Assembly (NCBI GenBank): GCA_017965425.1
Contig: JAGCPY010000032.1
Location: 1-51,060 of the forward strand
Reading direction: 5' to 3'
DNA: 51,060 nucleotides
Origin: Bacteroidaceae bacterium
GTDB lineage: Bacteria > Bacteroidota > Bacteroidia > Bacteroidales > Bacteroidaceae
The notes beneath the pieces were generated by a model. The model did no database searches. It was not told the origin of the DNA and worked only from the letters and a program-made list of their open reading frames with translations. Positions 4,351 through 44,772 of this stretch are shown piece after piece. The translations under genes were made by a program, and so were the position numbers. How positions within the stretch are numbered: the first letter of the stretch is position 1; each line of letters starts with the position of its first letter.

Positions 4351-4565
4351 AAAAATCCCTCAATCCCTCACCTTGTAAACTAATCACATGAAAATGAATA
4401 TGTTATTGGTGAGGGATTGGTGAGGTATAGGTGAGGGCTGGTGAGGGATGGTGAGGGATGGGACTATTCCCTAACCATCCCTCACCTATCCCTCACCAAT
4501 TCCTCACCTGTAAGTTCTTGATGGATAGTCGAGTAGAGAGAAAGGTGAGGGATTGAGGGATTTTT
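4351..4565. repeat. CCCTCACC long-inverted-repeat element, copy A
   Basis: The outer arms 4351-4374 and 4542-4565 (AAAAATCCCTCAATCCCTCACC plus two T) are perfectly complementary over 24 bp. Inside lie non-matching spacers and an inner imperfect inverted repeat of iterated GGTGAGGGA units (from about 4416) facing TCCCTCACC units (to about 4509). It sits between two convergent genes. Three related elements occur at 16096, 28941 and 44553. No coding potential is visible. Confidence 0.85.
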
Positions 4566-35890: not shown

Positions 35891-36064
35891 AATCAAAAGT
35901 GTTAAGAGAAATCGGCGGAAGAGTTAAGGGAAATGGTCGGTAGGCTCAAGGGAGAAGGACGAATGTGTCTTGACTTCTATGGGAAAAGATAGGTTGTTAG
36001 ATGGAAGTTTGCCAGCGTCTGTGCAAAAACAACGGGAAAATCATGTTCTTTCGGGAAAAAGACT

Positions 36065-36072
36065 TATCTTTG
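36065..36072 (+). promoter_or_regulatory. -7 box of the LPP20-like gene
   Basis: TATCTTTG, followed by CAGCC, lies 40 nt before the chosen ATG at 36112 and rules out the longer reading frame that begins at 36001. Confidence 0.65.
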
Positions 36073-36111
36073 CAGCCAGTTTGTGAAGAATACAATAGTC
36101 ACCATGTAAAT

Positions 36112-37983
36112 ATGAATACGCGCATCATAGCCTCGCTCGGGGCCTGCCTCCTTCTCTTCCTCCTGCCCCTCACCCTCTCAGCTCAGAACTGGGATGTGGT
36201 GAAGAGCAGTCCCGATTATGTCTATGGCGAGGGCGTGGGTGCCACCATCGCAGAAGCCGACCAGCGGGCACTGGCCGACCTGACGTCGAACATCTCGGTG
36301 TTCGTGCAGTCGGACTTCGAGATGACGACCACCAACCAGCAGGATGGCAGTCGGGTGTCGTCCGGCAGTTATGCCGCCAGCCGCATGAAGACCTATTCGC
36401 AGGCCACGCTGACGAATACCGAACGCATCGTGCTCTCGCCGGAACCCAATGCCCGTGTGGGACGATGGATGAAGAAGACGGAGGTCGATAAGCTCTTCCA
36501 ACTTCGCCTGGCCAAGGCACAGGACTTGGCCGCTTCCGCTCGGCGTGCCGAGGCAGCAGGCAAGGTGGACGACGCCCTGCGCTATTACTACTGGGCCTAC
36601 GCCCTCACGCAGTCGCTGCGTTACCCTTCGAAGGCTACGTTCACCGACGACGAAGGGCAGCAACACCTGCTGACGACTTGGCTGCCGCAGCAGATGCGAC
36701 AGGTGATGGACGACGTGGCGTGCCAGATGTCGCGCCGCGAAGGCGATGACATCGAGGTGGCCTTCTCCTTCCGCGGCCGCCCAGTGTCGAGCCTGGACTT
36801 CACCTACTTCGACGGTCGCGACTGGTGCCCCATCACCAGTGCCTCTGATGGTCGCGGCCTGATGGAGATGGCCGAGGGCTACAACGGGCAGACGCTACAG
36901 CTGCGCCTGGAATATGAATACCGCACGGAAGCACATATCGACCGCGAGCTGGAAGGCGTGCTGGCGGTGGTGCCCTCGCTGGCCTTCCCGAAAGCCACGA
37001 AGACCTTCAGCGCCAAGGCCACGCAGGAAGCCGCTCCCACAAGACGAGACCTCACCCCCGGCCTTTCTTCGAAAAGAGAGGGGAGTGATGGTGTCTTGAG
37101 TAACGGCGAGGGCAGCAGGACAGCCATGCCCTCGGCCCTGGCAGACGACAAGGCATACGCCAGTGTCGTGCAACGTGTGCTGACCGCCATCCGAGGCCGC
37201 AGCTATCAGTCGGTAACGGACTGCTTCACCGACGAAGGACGCGACGTGTTTCAACGTCTGGTGCAGTACGGCCAGGCCCGCCTGGTAGGTACGCCTCAGC
37301 CCGTGTTCCACCGTTCGGCCGACGGCGTGGTATGCCGTGGCGTGCAGATGTCTTTCAGCTTCGCCCGCGGTCTGCGTAAATCGTTCGTGGAAGAAGTGGT
37401 GTTCACCCTCGACACCGATGCCCGCATCAAGAATGTCAGCTTCGGCCTCGGACAGGTGGCCGAGCAGGATATCCTCTGCAAAGGCGTCTGGGACGAGAAC
37501 GTGCGGGTGGCCATCATGCAGTTTCTCGAGAACTACAAGACGGCCTACGCCCTGAAGCGACTGGACTACCTGAACACCATCTTCGACGACAACGCCGTCA
37601 TCATCACGGGCAGCGTGGCGCGCAACTCAGGTCAGCGCGGGATGCGTCTCGACACAGACTCGCGCCGTTTCACCCAGAAGGACGTGCGCTACAACCGCCA
37701 GACCAAGGAGCAGTATATGCGCAACCTGCGGCGCTGCTTCGACAGCAATGAATTCGTGAACATCCGCTTCTCCAACAATGACGTGGTGAAACTGGGCAAG
37801 GGTGGCGAGATGTACTCCATCCAAATTGAGCAGGACTACTACAGCACCACCTACGGCGACCACGGCTACCTCTTCCTGATGGTCGATTTGAACGATGCCG
37901 AGCACCCGCTCATCAAAGTGCGAACGTGGCAACCGGAGAAAGACCCGAACTTCGGACTTTACGGTCCGGGGGACTTCAAGTGA
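36112..37983 (+). CDS. LPP20-like exported protein
   Basis: The 623-residue protein has a signal peptide (IIASLGACLLLFLLPLTLSA) and an LPP20-like domain near the start (YVYGEGVGATIAEADQRALADLTSNISVFVQSDFE...). A helical stretch with YYYWAYALTQSLRYPS (about 155-175) follows, then a beta domain and a C-terminal nuclear-transport-factor-like region (MQFLENYKTAYALKRLDYLNTIFDDNAVII, about 475-505). Role unknown; related proteins are often outer-membrane or periplasmic components in Bacteroidales. A GC-rich palindrome in frame at 37050-37091 adds a Pro/Ser/Gly/Glu-rich linker (about residues 313-327). The downstream terminator is strong. Confidence 0.8.
   Translation: MNTRIIASLGACLLLFLLPLTLSAQNWDVVKSSPDYVYGEGVGATIAEADQRALADLTSNISVFVQSDFEMTTTNQQDGSRVSSGSYAASRMKTYSQATLTNTERIVLSPEPNARVGRWMKKTEVDKLFQLRLAKAQDLAASARRAEAAGKVDDALRYYYWAYALTQSLRYPSKATFTDDEGQQHLLTTWLPQQMRQVMDDVACQMSRREGDDIEVAFSFRGRPVSSLDFTYFDGRDWCPITSASDGRGLMEMAEGYNGQTLQLRLEYEYRTEAHIDRELEGVLAVVPSLAFPKATKTFSAKATQEAAPTRRDLTPGLSSKREGSDGVLSNGEGSRTAMPSALADDKAYASVVQRVLTAIRGRSYQSVTDCFTDEGRDVFQRLVQYGQARLVGTPQPVFHRSADGVVCRGVQMSFSFARGLRKSFVEEVVFTLDTDARIKNVSFGLGQVAEQDILCKGVWDENVRVAIMQFLENYKTAYALKRLDYLNTIFDDNAVIITGSVARNSGQRGMRLDTDSRRFTQKDVRYNRQTKEQYMRNLRRCFDSNEFVNIRFSNNDVVKLGKGGEMYSIQIEQDYYSTTYGDHGYLFLMVDLNDAEHPLIKVRTWQPEKDPNFGLYGPGDFK
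37050..37091. repeat. GC-rich palindrome in frame in the LPP20-like gene
   Basis: CCTCACCCCCGGCCTTTCTT...AAGAGAGGGGAGTG resembles the intergenic copy at 40151-40190 (CCTCACCCCCGACCCCTCTC). It is translated as a low-complexity linker. Confidence 0.6.
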
Positions 37984-38124: not shown

Positions 38125-38997
38125 ATGGCTTTGAAAATCGTTGTGCTGGCCAAGCAAGTGCCAGACACCCGTAATGTGGGCAAGGACGCGATGACAGCCG
38201 AAGGAACGGTGAATCGCGCTGCCCTGCCTGCCATTTTTAATCCAGAAGATCTGAATGCCCTGGAGCAGGCACTGCGCCTGAAGGAGCAGAACCCAGGTTC
38301 CACGGTGGGCATCCTCACGATGGGACCTCCCCGTGCCGGTGAAATCATCCGCCAAGGACTTTATCGTGGTGCTGACACTGGCTGGCTGCTGACCGACCGC
38401 CTGTTCGCAGGTGCCGACACACTCGCCACCTCCTACGCCCTGGCCACCGCCATCAAGAAGATTGGTGACGTCGATATCGTCATCGGAGGTCGTCAGGCCA
38501 TCGACGGCGACACGGCTCAGGTGGGGCCTCAGGTGGCTCAGAAACTGGGCCTGAACCAAGTAACCTATGCAGAAGAGGTGCTTTCCGTAAAAGACGGAAA
38601 GGCTACTATCAAGCGCGTCATCGACGGCGGCGTGGAGACCGTGGAGGCACCTCTGCCCGTGGTCATCACCGTCAACGGAAGCGCAGCCCCCTGCCGTCCC
38701 CAGAACGCCAAGCTGGTGATGAAGTACAAGCGCGCCACCTGCCCCATGGAACGCCCGGCCGAAGGAACGCCCTACGACCACCTCTATGAGGAGCGTCCTT
38801 ACCTGACACTCAACCAGTGGAGCGTGGCCGACGTGGAGGGCGACCCCGCTCAGTGCGGCCTTGCAGGCTCTCCCACGAAGGTGAAGGCCGTGAAGAACAT
38901 CGTCTTCCAGGCGAAGGAGTCGAAAACTTTGACGGCTTCTGACGCTGATGTCGAGGGAATGATCAAAGAATTGTTGGAAGAAAAGATCATCGGATAG
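38125..38997 (+). CDS. etfB: Electron transfer flavoprotein beta subunit
   Basis: The 290-residue protein begins MALKIVVLAKQVPDTRNVG. It has VGILTMGPPRAGEIIRQGLYRGAD, SYALATAIKKIGDVDIVIGGRQAIDGDTAQVGPQVAQKLG (the AMP/FAD site of EtfB), and VVITVNGSAAPCRPQNAKLVMKYKRA. With EtfA it carries electrons from acyl-CoA dehydrogenases. An upstream ATG at 38095 is part of the leader, and 38125 follows the promoter with a clean start. Operon order is etfB-etfA-DUF559-acyl-CoA dehydrogenase. Confidence 0.95.
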   Translation: MALKIVVLAKQVPDTRNVGKDAMTAEGTVNRAALPAIFNPEDLNALEQALRLKEQNPGSTVGILTMGPPRAGEIIRQGLYRGADTGWLLTDRLFAGADTLATSYALATAIKKIGDVDIVIGGRQAIDGDTAQVGPQVAQKLGLNQVTYAEEVLSVKDGKATIKRVIDGGVETVEAPLPVVITVNGSAAPCRPQNAKLVMKYKRATCPMERPAEGTPYDHLYEERPYLTLNQWSVADVEGDPAQCGLAGSPTKVKAVKNIVFQAKESKTLTASDADVEGMIKELLEEKIIG

Positions 38998-38999
38998 AA

Positions 39000-39040
39000 G
39001 ACCTCCCTCACCCTCCCTTGTAGGGAGGGAGTGGTCACCT
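39000..39040. repeat. GC-rich palindrome between etfB and etfA
   Basis: ACCTCCCTCACCCTCCCTTG...AGGGAGGGAGTGG forms a hairpin in the 69-nt gap and belongs to the family inserted elsewhere in frame. Confidence 0.65.
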
Positions 39041-39066
39041 TTCAAGAATAAAAAAAGAGAACGACT

Positions 39067-40149
39067 ATGCAAGATAATCAATCCGCACAAGTAAATACTC
39101 CCCTCCATACCAGGGAGGGGCATGGGGGTGGACCCGTCTGTGTCTATTGTGAGATAGAAGGCACCCTCGTACAGGAAGTATCTCAGGAGTTGCTGACCAA
39201 GGGTCGCAAACTCGCCAATGAACTGAAGGTTGAGCTCCACGCTGTCGTGGTAGGTACTGGAATAAAGGGAAAGGTCGAGGAGCAGATTCTGCCCTACGGC
39301 GTCGATAAGCTCTTCGTCTTCGACGGCGAAGGCCTCTTCCCCTACACTTCGGCTCCCCACACCGACATCCTCGTCAACCTCTTCAAGGAAGAACAGCCGC
39401 AGATCTGCCTCATGGGCGCCACGGTCATCGGTCGCGACCTCGGTCCCCGTGTCTCGTCTTCCCTCACCAGCGGCCTCACAGCCGACTGCACAGAACTGGA
39501 GATTGGCGAGTACGACGACAAGAAGAGCGGCAAGCACTATGACCAGTTGCTCTATCAGATTCGTCCCGCCTTCGGAGGTAACATCGTCGCCACCATCGTC
39601 AATCCCGACCATCGTCCCCAGATGGCTACGGTTCGTTCCGGCGTGATGCAGAAGGCCATCTACGAGGGCGCTTGCCGCAAGGAAGTTGTCTATCCCGAGG
39701 TCAGCAAGTATGTCTCTGCTGAGGCTTACGTTGTGAAAGTTCTCGACCACCATGTAGAGGCCGCCAAGCACAACCTGAAGGGCGCTCCCATCGTCGTCGC
39801 CGGCGGTTACGGTATGGGCTCGAAGGAAGGCTTCGACATGCTGTTCGAGCTGGCCAAGGTGCTGCACGGCGAGGTGGGCGGTTCACGTGCTGCCGTGGAT
39901 GCAGGCTTCTGCGACCACGACCGTCAGATTGGTCAGACGGGCGTTACCGTGCATCCGAAAGTGTATATCGCCTGTGGTATCTCCGGACAGATCCAGCACA
40001 TCGCCGGTATGCAGGACTCTGGCATCATCATCAGCGTCAACAGCGACCCCGATGCCCCCATCAACCGCATCGCCGACTACGTGATTGTTGGTACGGTGGA
40101 AGAGGTGGTGCCGAAGCTGATCAAGTACTATAAGCAGAATAGTAAGTAA
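39067..40149 (+). CDS. etfA: Electron transfer flavoprotein alpha subunit with an in-frame palindrome insert
   Basis: The 360-residue protein is a normal EtfA from VCVYCEIEGTLVQEVSQELLTKGRKLA (about residue 24) onward. The C-terminal FAD domain includes GRDLGPRVSSSL, AKVLHGEVGGSRAAVDAGF and YIACGISGQIQHIAGMQDSG (about 300-320). Its first 23 residues (MQDNQSAQVNTPLHTREGHG...) are unlike the usual short N-terminus; residues 11-23 are encoded by a GC-rich palindrome at 39098-39135. The ATG at 39067 is supported by an upstream AAAGAGAACGACT. The insert is in frame and upstream of the first beta strand, where it could be tolerated. Confidence 0.93.
   Translation: MQDNQSAQVNTPLHTREGHGGGPVCVYCEIEGTLVQEVSQELLTKGRKLANELKVELHAVVVGTGIKGKVEEQILPYGVDKLFVFDGEGLFPYTSAPHTDILVNLFKEEQPQICLMGATVIGRDLGPRVSSSLTSGLTADCTELEIGEYDDKKSGKHYDQLLYQIRPAFGGNIVATIVNPDHRPQMATVRSGVMQKAIYEGACRKEVVYPEVSKYVSAEAYVVKVLDHHVEAAKHNLKGAPIVVAGGYGMGSKEGFDMLFELAKVLHGEVGGSRAAVDAGFCDHDRQIGQTGVTVHPKVYIACGISGQIQHIAGMQDSGIIISVNSDPDAPINRIADYVIVGTVEEVVPKLIKYYKQNSK
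39098..39135. repeat. GC-rich palindrome in frame at the 5' end of etfA
   Basis: CTCCCCTCCATACCAGGGAG followed by GGGCATGGGGGTGG forms a hairpin core at 39100-39120 and is translated as TPLHTREGHGGGP. Confidence 0.75.
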
Positions 40150-40150
40150 A

Positions 40151-40190
40151 GCCTCACCCCCGACCCCTCTCCGAAAGGAGAGGGGGGTGA
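40151..40190. repeat. GC-rich palindrome between etfA and the DUF559 gene
   Basis: GCCTCACCCCCGACCCCTCT then CCGAAAGGAGAGGGGGGTGA form a hairpin (CCCCTCTCC-GAAA-GGAGAGGGG). It lies 2 nt after the etfA stop and 16 nt before the DUF559 start. Confidence 0.75.
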
Positions 40191-40205
40191 AAACTCAAAG
40201 ATAAA

Positions 40206-40585
40206 TGCCTAATGATTGGATAAAGACCTCTTCCCCAGATAGGTACGGACTGCTCAAAGAATACGCTAAGAAGAGCAGGCAGGAAATGACAGAAAGTGAA
40301 TTTATCCTGTGGAACGCTTTAAGGGATTCGAGAAATGGTCTTCGGTTCAGACGGCAACATCCAATTGGCGACTATATAGCAGACTTCGTTTGTTTGAAAA
40401 GAAAGTTGGTAATAGAGGTGGATGGTGGCTATCATGATCATCCTCAACAGCAACAGGAAGACCAATGGCGTACAGATTTTCTTGAAAAAATGGGTTACGT
40501 GGTGCTTCGCTTCAGGAACGAAGAAATAAACAATAGCCTCAATGAGGTTTTAGAGAGAATTAATGCAGTGTTAATAAACGAATAA
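40206..40585 (+). CDS. DUF559 nuclease-like protein
   Basis: The ATG at 40206 (ATGCCTAATGATTGG) begins a 126-residue protein with the DUF559 pattern: LWNALRDSRNGLRFRRQHPIGDYIADFVCLKRKLVIEVDGGYHD (about 35-78) and the C-terminal DFLEKMGYVVLRFRNEEINNSL. The acidic residues in GDYIADF (Asp57, Asp60) and IEVDG (Glu71, Asp73) resemble the active site of the Vsr/PD-(D/E)xK nuclease fold. The biological role of the family is not established. It interrupts an otherwise compact etfB-etfA-dehydrogenase operon and is more AT-rich than its neighbours. Palindromes of one family lie just upstream and inside the next gene. Confidence 0.85.
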
Positions 40586-40591
40586 TGTAAT

Positions 40592-42370
40592 ATGAATTAC
40601 TATACAGACCATCCTGAAATAGAGTTTCATCTGAGTCATCCCTTGATGAAACGGATTGTTGACCTGAAGGAAAAAGGTTATGCTGACGCAAAGGAATATT
40701 CAGCCAGCTTAACTTCATCAGAGAATCCACCCTCCTCTCCCCTCTCCTTTCGGAGAGGGGGCGGGGGTGAGGCCGCTCCCGTTGACTACGAGGATGCCAT
40801 CGAGAACTACAAGGCGATTCTCGACATCACGGGCGATGTGGCCGCTAACATCATCGGACCCAACTCCGAGAGCGTGGACCTCGAAGGACCGCACCTCGAG
40901 AACGGACGCATGATCTATGCCTCCAAGACCTTCGAGAACCTCGATGCCACCCGCAAGGCTGGTCTTTGGGGCGTCTCTATGCCTCGTCGCTACGGCGGCC
41001 TGAACCTGCCGAACCTCGTGTTCTCCATGCTCAGCGAGGTCATCTCCGCAGCCGATGCCGGCTTCCAGAACATCTGGAGCTTGCAGAGTTGTATTGATAC
41101 CCTCTATGAGTTCGGCTCTGAGGAACAGCGTCAGAAGTATATTCCCCGTGTTTGTGCTGGTGAAGGAATGTCGATGGACTTGACTGAGCCCGATGCAGGT
41201 TCCGACTTGCAGCGTGTCATGTTGAAGGCTACCTTCGACGAGAAAGAGAACTGCTGGCGTCTGAATGGCGTGAAGCGCTTCATCACCAATGGTGATAGCG
41301 ACATCCACCTTGTGCTGGCTCGTTCCGAGGACGGTACCAAAGACGGTCGCGGTCTGTCGATGTTCATCTACGACAAGCGCAATGGCGGTGTCAACGTGCG
41401 ACATATTGAGCACAAGCTGGGCATCCACGGCTCTCCCACGTGTGAATTAACCTATAAGAACGCGCGCGCGGAACTCTGCGGCAGCACACGCCTCGGCCTC
41501 ATCAAGTATGTGATGGCGCTCATGAACGGTGCCCGCCTCGGCATCGCCGCTCAGAGTGTGGGTCTCTCTCAGGAAGCTTACAACGAAGGACTTGCCTACG
41601 CTCGTGAACGTCAGCAGTTCGGCGAAAAGATTATCAACTTCCCCGCTGTCTTCGACATGCTTAGCCGCATGAAGGCCAAGCTCGATGCAGGTCGCTCGCT
41701 GCTTTATCAGACTGCTGCTTACGTGGACATCTACAAGTGCCTGGAGGACATTGAACGCGACCGCAAGCTCACGCCCGAAGAGAAGCAGGAACTGAAGAAG
41801 TACCAGCGCTTGGCAGACGCCTTCACACCGCTGGCCAAGGGCATGAACTCAGAGTATGCTAACCAGAATGCCTACGACGCCATTTCCATTCATGGTGGCA
41901 GCGGTTTCATCATGGAATACAAGAGCCAGCGCCTCTATCGCGACGCCCGCATCTTCTCGATTTACGAAGGAACCACACAGCTGCAAGTCGTCGCCGCCAT
42001 TCGCTACATCATCAACGGCACCATGCTCCAGAACATCAAGGAGATGGCAGAAGGGTTGGTGTGCAGCGATGCAGTCGCAGCATTAAAGGCTCGCGTCGAA
42101 GCTCTCATTCCCGTTTATGAGGAAGCCCTCGCGACCGTCAAGGCGCTCGACAATCAAGATGCCATCGACTTCCTCTCACGTCGTCTCTACGATATGACCT
42201 GCGAGATTGTGATGTCTCTGCTCATCATCCGCGATGCCGCCGCAGCCCCCGAGCTCTTCGAGAAGAGTGCCAACGTCTATGTTCGCATGACCGAGGAAGA
42301 TGTCATCGGCAAGGCCGCCTACATCAAGAACTTCAACGTCGAAAGTCTTGACAGCTTCCGTGCGGAGTGA
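40592..42370 (+). CDS. Acyl-CoA dehydrogenase with an in-frame palindrome insert
   Basis: The 592-residue protein has an N-terminal segment (MNYYTDHPEIEFHLSHPLMKRIVDLKEKGYADAKE) typical of Bacteroidales homologues. An insert at about 38-62 (SLTSSENPPSSPLSFRRGGG...) is encoded by a GC-rich palindrome. The standard fold follows: MDLTEPDAGSDLQRV (flavin contact), HKLGIHGSPTCEL, YARERQQFGEKIINFPAV, and FSIYEGTTQLQVVAAI (catalytic Glu about 459). A C-terminal extension (about 480-592) is as in the larger family members. It passes electrons to EtfAB. The natural substrate cannot be told from sequence. A strong terminator follows. Confidence 0.93.
   Translation: MNYYTDHPEIEFHLSHPLMKRIVDLKEKGYADAKEYSASLTSSENPPSSPLSFRRGGGGEAAPVDYEDAIENYKAILDITGDVAANIIGPNSESVDLEGPHLENGRMIYASKTFENLDATRKAGLWGVSMPRRYGGLNLPNLVFSMLSEVISAADAGFQNIWSLQSCIDTLYEFGSEEQRQKYIPRVCAGEGMSMDLTEPDAGSDLQRVMLKATFDEKENCWRLNGVKRFITNGDSDIHLVLARSEDGTKDGRGLSMFIYDKRNGGVNVRHIEHKLGIHGSPTCELTYKNARAELCGSTRLGLIKYVMALMNGARLGIAAQSVGLSQEAYNEGLAYARERQQFGEKIINFPAVFDMLSRMKAKLDAGRSLLYQTAAYVDIYKCLEDIERDRKLTPEEKQELKKYQRLADAFTPLAKGMNSEYANQNAYDAISIHGGSGFIMEYKSQRLYRDARIFSIYEGTTQLQVVAAIRYIINGTMLQNIKEMAEGLVCSDAVAALKARVEALIPVYEEALATVKALDNQDAIDFLSRRLYDMTCEIVMSLLIIRDAAAAPELFEKSANVYVRMTEEDVIGKAAYIKNFNVESLDSFRAE
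40728..40772. repeat. GC-rich palindrome in frame in the acyl-CoA dehydrogenase gene
   Basis: The core CCCCTCTCC-TTTC-GGAGAGGGG (40739-40760) lies inside a longer C-rich/G-rich pair ending GCGGGGGTGAGG. It is translated as PPSSPLSFRRGGGGEA. Confidence 0.8.
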
Positions 42371-44552: not shown

Positions 44553-44772
44553 AAATCCCTCAATCCCTCACCTTTTGAGGTATTTATTTGAGAGACAGAC
44601 GCTTGCCGGTGAGGGATTGGTGAGGGATAGGTGAGGGATGGTGAGGAATTGCGATTTTGTGGGCTTGAAAACGAAATCTCTCACCATCCCTCACCTATCC
44701 CTCACCAAAGTCTCACCAGTAAAGCGTTGTGTGATAATCCGATAGGCCCAAAGGTGAGGGATTGAGGGATTT
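44553..44772. repeat. CCCTCACC long-inverted-repeat element, copy D
   Basis: The outer arms 44553-44575 and 44750-44772 (AAATCCCTCAATCCCTCACC plus three T) are complementary over 23 bp. Inner GGTGAGGGA arrays (about 44607-44649) face TCCCTCACC arrays (about 44680-44718). It is followed by a flank shared with copy B in reverse (AAAAAGCC.TGTATAGA and GGACAATCTGCC) and by GAAGGT modules at about 44835-44880. Confidence 0.88.

Follow-up and report, generated by a model that had tools for sequence, protein, structure and literature searches.

A DUF559 nuclease gene carried between inverted palindromes in a Bacteroidaceae genome: a candidate mobile unit with REP-like ends

The locus and its features

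A contig of a Bacteroidaceae bacterium (JAGCPY010000032.1, assembly GCA_017965425.1, 3.73 Mb), analysed here at its complete length of 51,060 nucleotides (51 kb) and referred to as the window, contains a gene for a DUF559 protein, a Vsr-like nuclease, between etfA (stop codon at 40147-40149) and an acyl-CoA dehydrogenase gene (ACDH; start at 40592), directly after a short palindrome. The genes etfB, etfA, DUF559 and ACDH are all read in the same direction, and the DUF559 gene is enclosed by two palindromes, at 40164 and 40739, which are part of a 35-nt inverted repeat with 97% complementarity. Comparisons of such loci across genomes give good support to the view that DUF559 and its palindromic ends constitute a mobile unit. 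The fuller reading, in which a mobile nuclease unit has DUF559 as its only gene and ends that resemble repetitive extragenic palindromic (REP) sequences, the nuclease recognizes its own ends and solitary palindromes are derivatives of the unit, is assigned a probability of about 0.6.

The original prediction for this stretch, made from the sequence by itself, had described four palindromes of one family within about 1.8 kb, two of them within genes, and a DUF559 gene splitting the etfA-dehydrogenase operon right behind a palindrome; both descriptions held. A scan for hairpins with pyrimidine/purine stems at a single threshold returned exactly these four in the window, all within 39006-40760 (39006-39034, 39100-39120, 40164-40185 and 40739-40760), against a mean of 0.2 and a maximum of 1 in 20 first-order Markov sequences used as controls. 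The strict form of the hairpin occurs five times in the assembly; two of these copies flank the DUF559 gene of the window, and a third lies about 0.9 kb away from another DUF559 gene (contig C89). Three further family members had been proposed, at 37050, 13064 and 19137; the first survives as a decayed relative with a broken stem, and the other two were rejected because they fail the same threshold.

The features considered are as follows (loci, genomes and contigs compared are designated by L, G and C numbers):

40150-40187, + strand: left palindromic end of the unit, AGCCTCACCCCCGA, then the hairpin CCCCTCTCC-GAAA-GGAGAGGGG
40205-40585, + strand: DUF559 (Vsr-like / PD-(D/E)XK) nuclease gene, 126 aa; Pfam DUF559 (PF04480), E = 1.3e-36
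40726-40774, + strand: right palindromic copy, inverted, inside ACDH, coding ...SSPLSFRRGGGGEA in frame; L097-L104 lack the insert
39000-39036, + strand: left palindrome of a nuclease-less pair at the etfB/etfA junction, which is empty in 5 of 7 relatives
39094-39136, + strand: right palindrome of the nuclease-less pair, at the etfA N-terminus, in frame, coding MQDNQSAQVNTPLHTREGHGGG
37041-37103, + strand: decayed palindrome relative inside the gene at 36001-37983, coding LTPGLSSKREGS; stem broken, under the hairpin threshold
38125-38997, + strand: etfB, electron transfer flavoprotein, upstream host gene; Pfam ETF, E = 2e-40
39067-40149, + strand: etfA, host gene upstream of the unit; Pfam ETF and ETF_alpha
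40592-42370, + strand: acyl-CoA dehydrogenase, host gene downstream of the unit; Pfam acyl-CoA dehydrogenase domains

The insert in ACDH that contains the right palindrome comprises 25 residues and starts behind 36 native codons, between the residues AKEY and APVD; it takes other forms in L095, L096 and L105. No ortholog of the gene at 36001-37983 was aligned in the comparison of relatives.

Association of DUF559 with inverted palindromic ends

In a first sample, made up of the 80 best among 89 confirmed DUF559 loci in genomes other than that of the window, hairpins of the family reach densities of 2.4 per kb upstream and 2.6 per kb downstream within 100 bp of the DUF559 domain, falling to 0.00-0.15 per kb beyond 200 bp and 0.00-0.05 per kb at 1-6 kb. 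When the upstream flank was compared with the reverse complement of the downstream flank, the observed match exceeded all 50 shuffles in 51 of the 80 loci. The set was then extended to 113 loci by adding four from the genome of the window (the window included) and 29 from the genus, with the weak match L006 and the duplicate L005 excluded. Controls were 565 other positions within these loci, compared with identical geometry. Inverted flanks at a score of at least 14 were found at 93 of the 113 DUF559 loci and at 4 control positions; the corresponding counts are 102 and 19 at a score of 12, and 80 and 3 at a score of 20. Terminal inverted repeats of the insertion-sequence type are thus present. 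Across a sample of the phylum Bacteroidota, where DUF559 occurs in 129 of 296 genomes and 82 of 140 genera, the loci of the best-scoring genomes carry inverted flanks in 17 of 29 cases (L178 among them being apparently the L076 locus again), compared with 1 of 145 controls. The prediction that DUF559 genes adjoin such palindromes beyond chance is borne out by these counts. Its picture of a gene nested in a palindrome cluster calls for revision: the association stands, and in most cases two inverted ends enclose the gene, which does not just lie near a cluster.

The ends share a common architecture, consisting of an outer stretch such as GCCTCACCCCC followed by a hairpin such as CCCCTCTCC-loop-GGAGAGGGG. 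A hairpin was obtained in 167 of 186 ends, and 90 of these hairpins are distinct; in all 90, the pyrimidine arm lies outside. Watson-Crick pairing is retained in 74-90 of the 90 at each of the eight outer pair positions and in 48 at the ninth, counts that are favoured by the choice of the best hairpin of each end as its stem. Stem pairs are preserved through exchange of C-G and T-A (e.g., 44 vs 40 at one position). Both ends of a DUF559 locus match one another. Outer flanks are frequently similar to GCCTCACCCCC, and some inner flanks read GAGTAGAT; it is in these flanks that a GTAG or CGTC tag of the REP type would be expected.

The ends also vary with the nuclease that they enclose. For 85 of the 113 loci (the other 28 were excluded because their flanks fell short of score 14, their domain was short or a stop was present), protein distance was related to end similarity in 3376 of 3570 pairs, namely those from different gene contexts. 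End similarity is 0.83 at DUF559 distances of 0.2-0.3 (23 pairs), 0.60 at 0.3-0.4 (91 pairs) and 0.30-0.35 at 0.4 or more, and the observed correlation between distance and similarity was reached by 0 of 999 permutations. Ends and nuclease appear to diverge together and hence would belong together.

Filled, empty and palindrome-pair versions of shared junctions

The etfA-ACDH junction was compared in 30 ACDH loci of the genus, drawn from 30 of the 51 genomes with a match. DUF559 stands ahead of ACDH in four of them (the window, L096, L097 and L101), and nine are empty (L098, L102, L108, L114, L118 and L120-L123), with the ACDH start a few bases after the etfA stop. Intermediate states are found in L105, which has an apparent remnant, and in L119, which has a palindrome pair without nuclease; the remaining loci have other sequence at the junction or are cut off. 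In L096, L097 and L101 the etfA stop is followed by an end like the left one of the window, which empty sites such as L098 and L102 lack, and the right end lies directly before the ACDH ATG in L097 and L101. In the G003 assembly, empty (L098) and DUF559-filled (L141) versions of this junction occur on different contigs; they may reflect strain polymorphism or a mixture within the metagenome-assembled genome (MAG) and were not used as proof of mobility.

At the etfB-etfA junction, the five empty relatives have 16-21 bp between the etfB stop and a conserved etfA motif, L159 carries a palindrome pair like that of the window, and L162 gave no clear state; a full DUF559 unit occupies the junction in four other genomes (L018, L020, L023 and L026). 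Because the sequence CAAGAAAACAATCCG, which adjoins the right end of the L018 unit, resembles CAAGATAATCAATCCG in the pair of the window, this pair is probably a deletion derivative of a full unit, the alternative being that an existing pair gained the nuclease. A generalization that the unit always supplies stop and start codons was dropped, since the native start may be kept at this junction. A further shortened copy, L004 (G000, contig C17), is an internally deleted DUF559 gene with palindromes on both sides ahead of a gene resembling a transporter. Over 217 nt it shares 82% identity with L002 (contig C89 of G000, ahead of fmt), so that related copies occupy different places in one genome.

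DUF559 within host proteins

In addition to its position between genes, DUF559 occurs in frame, within or at the end of open reading frames (ORFs) in which Pfam recognizes semialdehyde dehydrogenase, phosphoglycerate mutase, guanylate kinase (gmk), GH31, ABC ATPase, isopropylmalate dehydrogenase-like, GAF, epimerase, Ham1/ITPase and RNase H proteins, as well as leucyl-tRNA synthetase (LeuRS), UvrA, MetH and methionyl-tRNA synthetase (MetRS), with the assignment of LeuRS, MetRS and MetH as hosts resting on sequence comparison. Among the phylum-sample matches listed, 42 of 150 lie in open frames of at least 300 aa. In L185, L189 and L198, DUF559 is in frame in apparent type I restriction HsdR subunits, as judged by eye.

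In LeuRS of Psychroflexus (L076), the match to 1h3n, presumably the Thermus thermophilus enzyme, stops between residues 236 and 240 and restarts 160 residues later, and in L082 the match of MetRS to 1rqg is interrupted by DUF559 between residues 241 and 248. LeuRS gave a single match in each of three genomes examined, two of which have the DUF559 insert, and in each of 145 of the 149 family genomes having a match. The presence of DUF559 inside essential proteins such as LeuRS, with no second genomic copy seen, points to tolerance of in-frame insertion. The LeuRS loop could be read in 31 cases (one locus gave none; 28 of the 31 are among the best-matched loci): three contain DUF559, 20 have 14-15 residues and eight have 19-38 residues. 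Several of the longer loops in other Flavobacteriaceae (L210, L211, L222 and L231) contain a long imperfect hairpin or repeat-like peptides such as IASEAKQS, known as a repeat peptide, and the loop may receive repeats of more than one kind.

Pfam hits at E <= 1e-5 included no intein domain in 18 ORFs with fused DUF559, and no intron family was detected at Rfam gathering scores in nine loci and the window; the ORFs and loci scanned thus show no sign of a self-splicing intron or intein around DUF559. The domain is under purifying selection, with a median dN/dS of 0.12 over 17 usable pairs from 22 hand-picked close pairs (four saturated pairs and one without change being excluded).

Distribution across contexts, genomes and phyla

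The 113 loci represent 39 gene contexts, 17 of which hold a single locus. On a tree of 105 rows, the context labels require 28 changes, compared with a minimum of 19 and a shuffled mean of 68. At the gmk site, well supported branches separate L090 from the other loci and force at least two changes, and this site was probably hit twice. Independent origin is not claimed for the LeuRS inserts of Kaistella and Psychroflexus, as the tree position of L093 is ambiguous.

In 139 genomes of the genus, many of them incomplete, DUF559 was detected in 98 and the strict palindrome, a single pattern that misses other palindrome types, in 73. Both are present in 66 genomes, DUF559 without the palindrome in 32, the palindrome without DUF559 in 7 and neither in 34 (odds ratio 10, p = 7e-8). 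Palindromes are thus commoner in genomes with DUF559 (66 of 98) than in those without (7 of 41), as the original prediction had anticipated. Copy numbers of the two are correlated (rho 0.52, p = 4e-11), and the odds ratio is 5.9 (p = 2e-4) in the 108 genomes with a completeness of 80% or more; neither the Fisher nor the Spearman test over genomes takes kinship into account. The palindromes are dispersed and often form inverted pairs: among 75 sites listed from 13 genomes, 38 lie within 200 bp of another, and of 20 adjacent pairs among the sites listed, 15 are inverted, three have the same orientation and two are undecided. In G110, which has 156 palindromes, 18 of the 50 sites listed are CCCCTCCCCTCGAAGGGGAGGGG in either orientation. 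The same sequence is found in an end of this genome's own DUF559 unit (L134, contig C8), which is outside the sites listed.

The RAYT family (PF01797) comprises the known movers of REPs. RAYT genes are present in 36 of the 139 genomes and have no significant link to the strict palindromes (odds ratio 1.9, p = 0.12), and the link between DUF559 and palindromes persists among genomes with RAYT and among those without. A role of RAYT as the palindrome mover in this genus is accordingly not supported.

Outside Bacteroidota, 10 loci were chosen from 38 plasmid-collection records with a DUF559 match, representing Cyanobacteriota, Pseudomonadota and Deinococcota. All 10 have inverted flanks or similar hairpins nearby. 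Inverted flanks exceed 100 shuffles in six (L166, L168, L169, L170, L172 and L173), of which L170 and L172 are both in Deinococcus hpa clusters and may be non-independent. Hairpins of the CCTCCCC/CCCTCTCC kind occur within 300 bp of eight (L169, L170, L172, L173, L167, L174, L171 and L175), lying on both sides of L167 and L174 and only downstream of L171 and L175; L166 and L168 have no hairpin of this kind at threshold within 300 bp. L174 is located between two transhydrogenase genes. L175 is ycjD of Escherichia coli, with matches in 3365 of 5426 complete genomes, 3362 of them over at least 80% of the query. The ycjD frame, in the sapF-fabI region, ends LSPSPQPSP at the start of the palindrome. 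The ycjD position is reported to be occupied by eefRABCD in other lineages (PMC12817139). Use of E. coli ycjD as a series of empty sites was set aside: among the other records listed, the alignment with sapF mostly stops at the gene or shortly behind it, which leaves the edges unreadable.

The DUF559 protein

A profile built from 61 DUF559 proteins matches the PDB entries 3hrl (3.8e-29) and 3r3p (1.9e-7), the latter annotated as 'Mobile intron protein' and corresponding to I-Bth0305I. In the alignment of these 61 sequences, E71, D73 and G74 are invariant and H77 nearly so, and the AlphaFold model of the protein has a mean pLDDT of 81. PADLOC returned a 'homing endonuclease' match for L002 (4e-5) and for the protein of the window (4.5e-4), together with weak matches to DpdF and a methyl-directed restriction enzyme; no transposase family was hit by the gene in the family searches. 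I-Bth0305I is described as a homing endonuclease (PMC3943268). PMC12907096 reports that Caulobacter cells without the methyltransferase ScmA show an SOS response that requires a DUF559 protein (VsrA), which is proposed on in vivo evidence to be Vsr-like and is treated as a putative repair enzyme; the string 'palindrom' has no occurrence in that article's main text.

A proposed mobile nuclease unit and its alternatives

The case for a mobile unit rests on its presence and absence at the same junctions in relatives, its many unrelated gene contexts, the co-divergence of nuclease and ends, the nuclease-less pairs that share junctions with full units and the in-frame copies within essential proteins. 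In the proposed mechanism, a unit of about 0.45-0.6 kb, with two inverted REP-like palindromes as ends and DUF559 as its only gene, would encode a relative of Vsr and of homing endonuclease that recognizes its own hairpin ends and nicks or cuts there or at the target; host repair or replication might then copy the unit, or just its ends, to other sites. Copies preserving operon translation and reading frame would survive selection and others would be lost, so that palindromes would remain where genes meet and where protein loops tolerate them. The earlier idea of a selfish module with surviving in-frame copies fits the empty, pair and full states; its proposal that the nuclease is the mover is conjectural, although cutting or copying of the palindromes by DUF559 itself would be the most economical account.

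Several observations count against this interpretation. Taken over all pairs, co-divergence is weak (rho 0.154); most of the 15 closest pairs listed belong to one subfamily, with AGCCCCCC-type ends and about three contexts. Inverted flanks are missing at score 14 from 20 of the 113 loci, 11 of which are in-frame copies. Copies at one site mostly cluster on the tree, through descent or homing, which suggests that new insertions are rare. In the window and in L096, native codons (36 of them in the window) precede the right palindrome within ACDH. The unit there is therefore not a simple cassette, and a strict one-event cassette was rejected for the window copy; either the ends insert independently, or the outer end beside ACDH was lost in the lineage of the window. 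The native etfA start may likewise lie between DUF559 and the right end at the etfB-etfA junction, and the right end may thus insert on its own. No target-site duplication was noticed at etfB-etfA or etfA-ACDH, where the empty alleles come from other species and exact edges are uncertain. Finally, the seven genomes with palindromes and no detected DUF559 include G018, with 33 copies, and G117, with 22 (scored 100% complete); something other than DUF559 may move or keep palindromes there, recent loss of DUF559 or gaps in the MAGs being the alternatives.

Among other explanations, the one that survives best, though an unlikely one, is that the palindromes came first and served as targets, pairs spreading by other means and DUF559 acting as a homing nuclease that cuts palindrome sites and is copied into them. 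It would accommodate the junctions that hold either a pair or a full unit, the seven genomes just mentioned, the native coding sequence separating the right palindrome from DUF559 in the window and L096, and the profile match to 3r3p. However, co-divergence of ends and nuclease across contexts and the matching of the two ends of a locus are what a unit predicts, and no palindrome-first state was seen in LeuRS, where none of the 28 loops (of 31) without DUF559 has a best hairpin of the CCCTCTCC type.

It is considerably less probable that DUF559 is a host-serving nuclease in very short patch (VSP) repair or restriction-like defence, near which REP-like repeats spread by RAYT or another transposase gather because such genes are dispensable. 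The purifying selection on the domain, the weak PADLOC matches to DpdF and a restriction enzyme and the Vsr-like role proposed for the Caulobacter protein (PMC12907096) would all suit a host function. Against this, the presence of RAYT is no significant predictor of the palindromes, a palindrome of another family is found about 0.4 kb from one of this genome's two RAYT genes, and inverted flanks, co-divergence and in-frame copies in essential proteins are unexpected for a plain host gene. The notion that DUF559 and palindromes meet merely through the shared tolerance of permissive loops and junctions, which collect unrelated repeats, is very improbable: it could draw on the eight longer LeuRS loops without DUF559 and on the gmk site probably hit twice, yet it leaves unexplained the match of ends within a locus, the outside pyrimidine arm in all 90 distinct hairpins, the co-divergence and the steep fall of hairpin density with distance from DUF559.

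Relation to known systems and implications

The DUF559 unit would thus work in the manner of a REP/RAYT system or a homing gene. With REPs, REP doublets (REPINs) and their RAYTs (TnpA_REP, Y1 HUH) it shares short palindromes that are often paired in inversion, a nuclease gene flanked by palindromes and dispersed copies without a gene. It departs from them in its enzyme, which is PD-(D/E)XK/Vsr-like rather than HUH/Y1, in palindromes that do not significantly track RAYT, and in that the unit itself occupies many sites and can fuse in frame into host proteins. Homing endonuclease genes of the EDxHD/Vsr-like type, such as I-Bth0305I, resemble it in their homologous nuclease domain (through the 3r3p match), in having the nuclease as the only gene and in using conserved genes as insertion sites; here, in contrast, the ends are palindromic and inverted, the sites are many and unrelated rather than one cognate allele, and no intron or intein was seen at DUF559 in the ORFs and loci scanned. 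Rickettsia palindromic elements (RPEs) are similar in being in-frame palindromic inserts in protein genes that are empty in relatives, like the ACDH insert. RPEs are not known to contain a gene of their own; in the unit described here the palindromes enclose a nuclease, which can become a domain of a host protein. Insertion sequences and miniature inverted-repeat transposable elements are comparable in their terminal inverted repeats and in the likeness of nuclease-less pairs to internal-deletion derivatives, but the DUF559 gene has no transposase family hit and no target-site duplication was identified (edges uncertain). Vsr/VSP repair endonucleases with a DUF559 domain, such as Caulobacter VsrA, share the domain relationship only; VsrA is treated as a putative repair enzyme in PMC12907096, whose main text does not contain 'palindrom'. 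According to PMC3733652, REPs have been observed within ORFs, stop codons can be contributed by GTAG REPs, and intragenic repeats of Rickettsia conorii are equated with RPE-4 and RPE-6.

No earlier report of a palindrome-ended DUF559 unit was found in the open-access literature searched, which mostly excludes subscription papers and preprints, where a prior description is possible. The abstract openings of open-access DUF559 papers likewise contain no link to such palindromes, the word 'Palindromic' appearing only in the name of CRISPR.

Tentatively, and at close to even odds, these loci may represent a widespread, undescribed class of mobile elements in several phyla that consists entirely of a Vsr-type nuclease gene and palindromic inverted ends, persists without splicing as a domain of essential enzymes (LeuRS, MetRS and MetH), sheds REP-like non-autonomous palindromes and provides the missing enzyme for many orphan bacterial palindromes. 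Many bacterial palindromic repeats have no known mover, and DUF559 offers a directly testable candidate enzyme, also by way of E. coli ycjD. If in-frame insertion into LeuRS and MetRS reflects real mobility, a selfish nuclease can inhabit essential proteins with no splicing by an intein or intron, and members of the DUF559 family now annotated as repair genes or as hypothetical would call for re-examination as possible mobile elements.

Other observations in the window

A second, unrelated palindrome family (GGTGAGGGATGGTGAGGGA...) is present in the window at 4440-4486 and 44626-44699, and also in L012 at 2268-2336. The L012 copy lies about 0.4 kb from one of this genome's two RAYT genes, and a RAYT-linked family may for this reason coexist with the DUF559-linked one in this genome. 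Close to the contig end, the segment at 47573-47609 matches the abiF RNA of Rfam with 58.5 bits, which suggests an Abi-type defence locus there.

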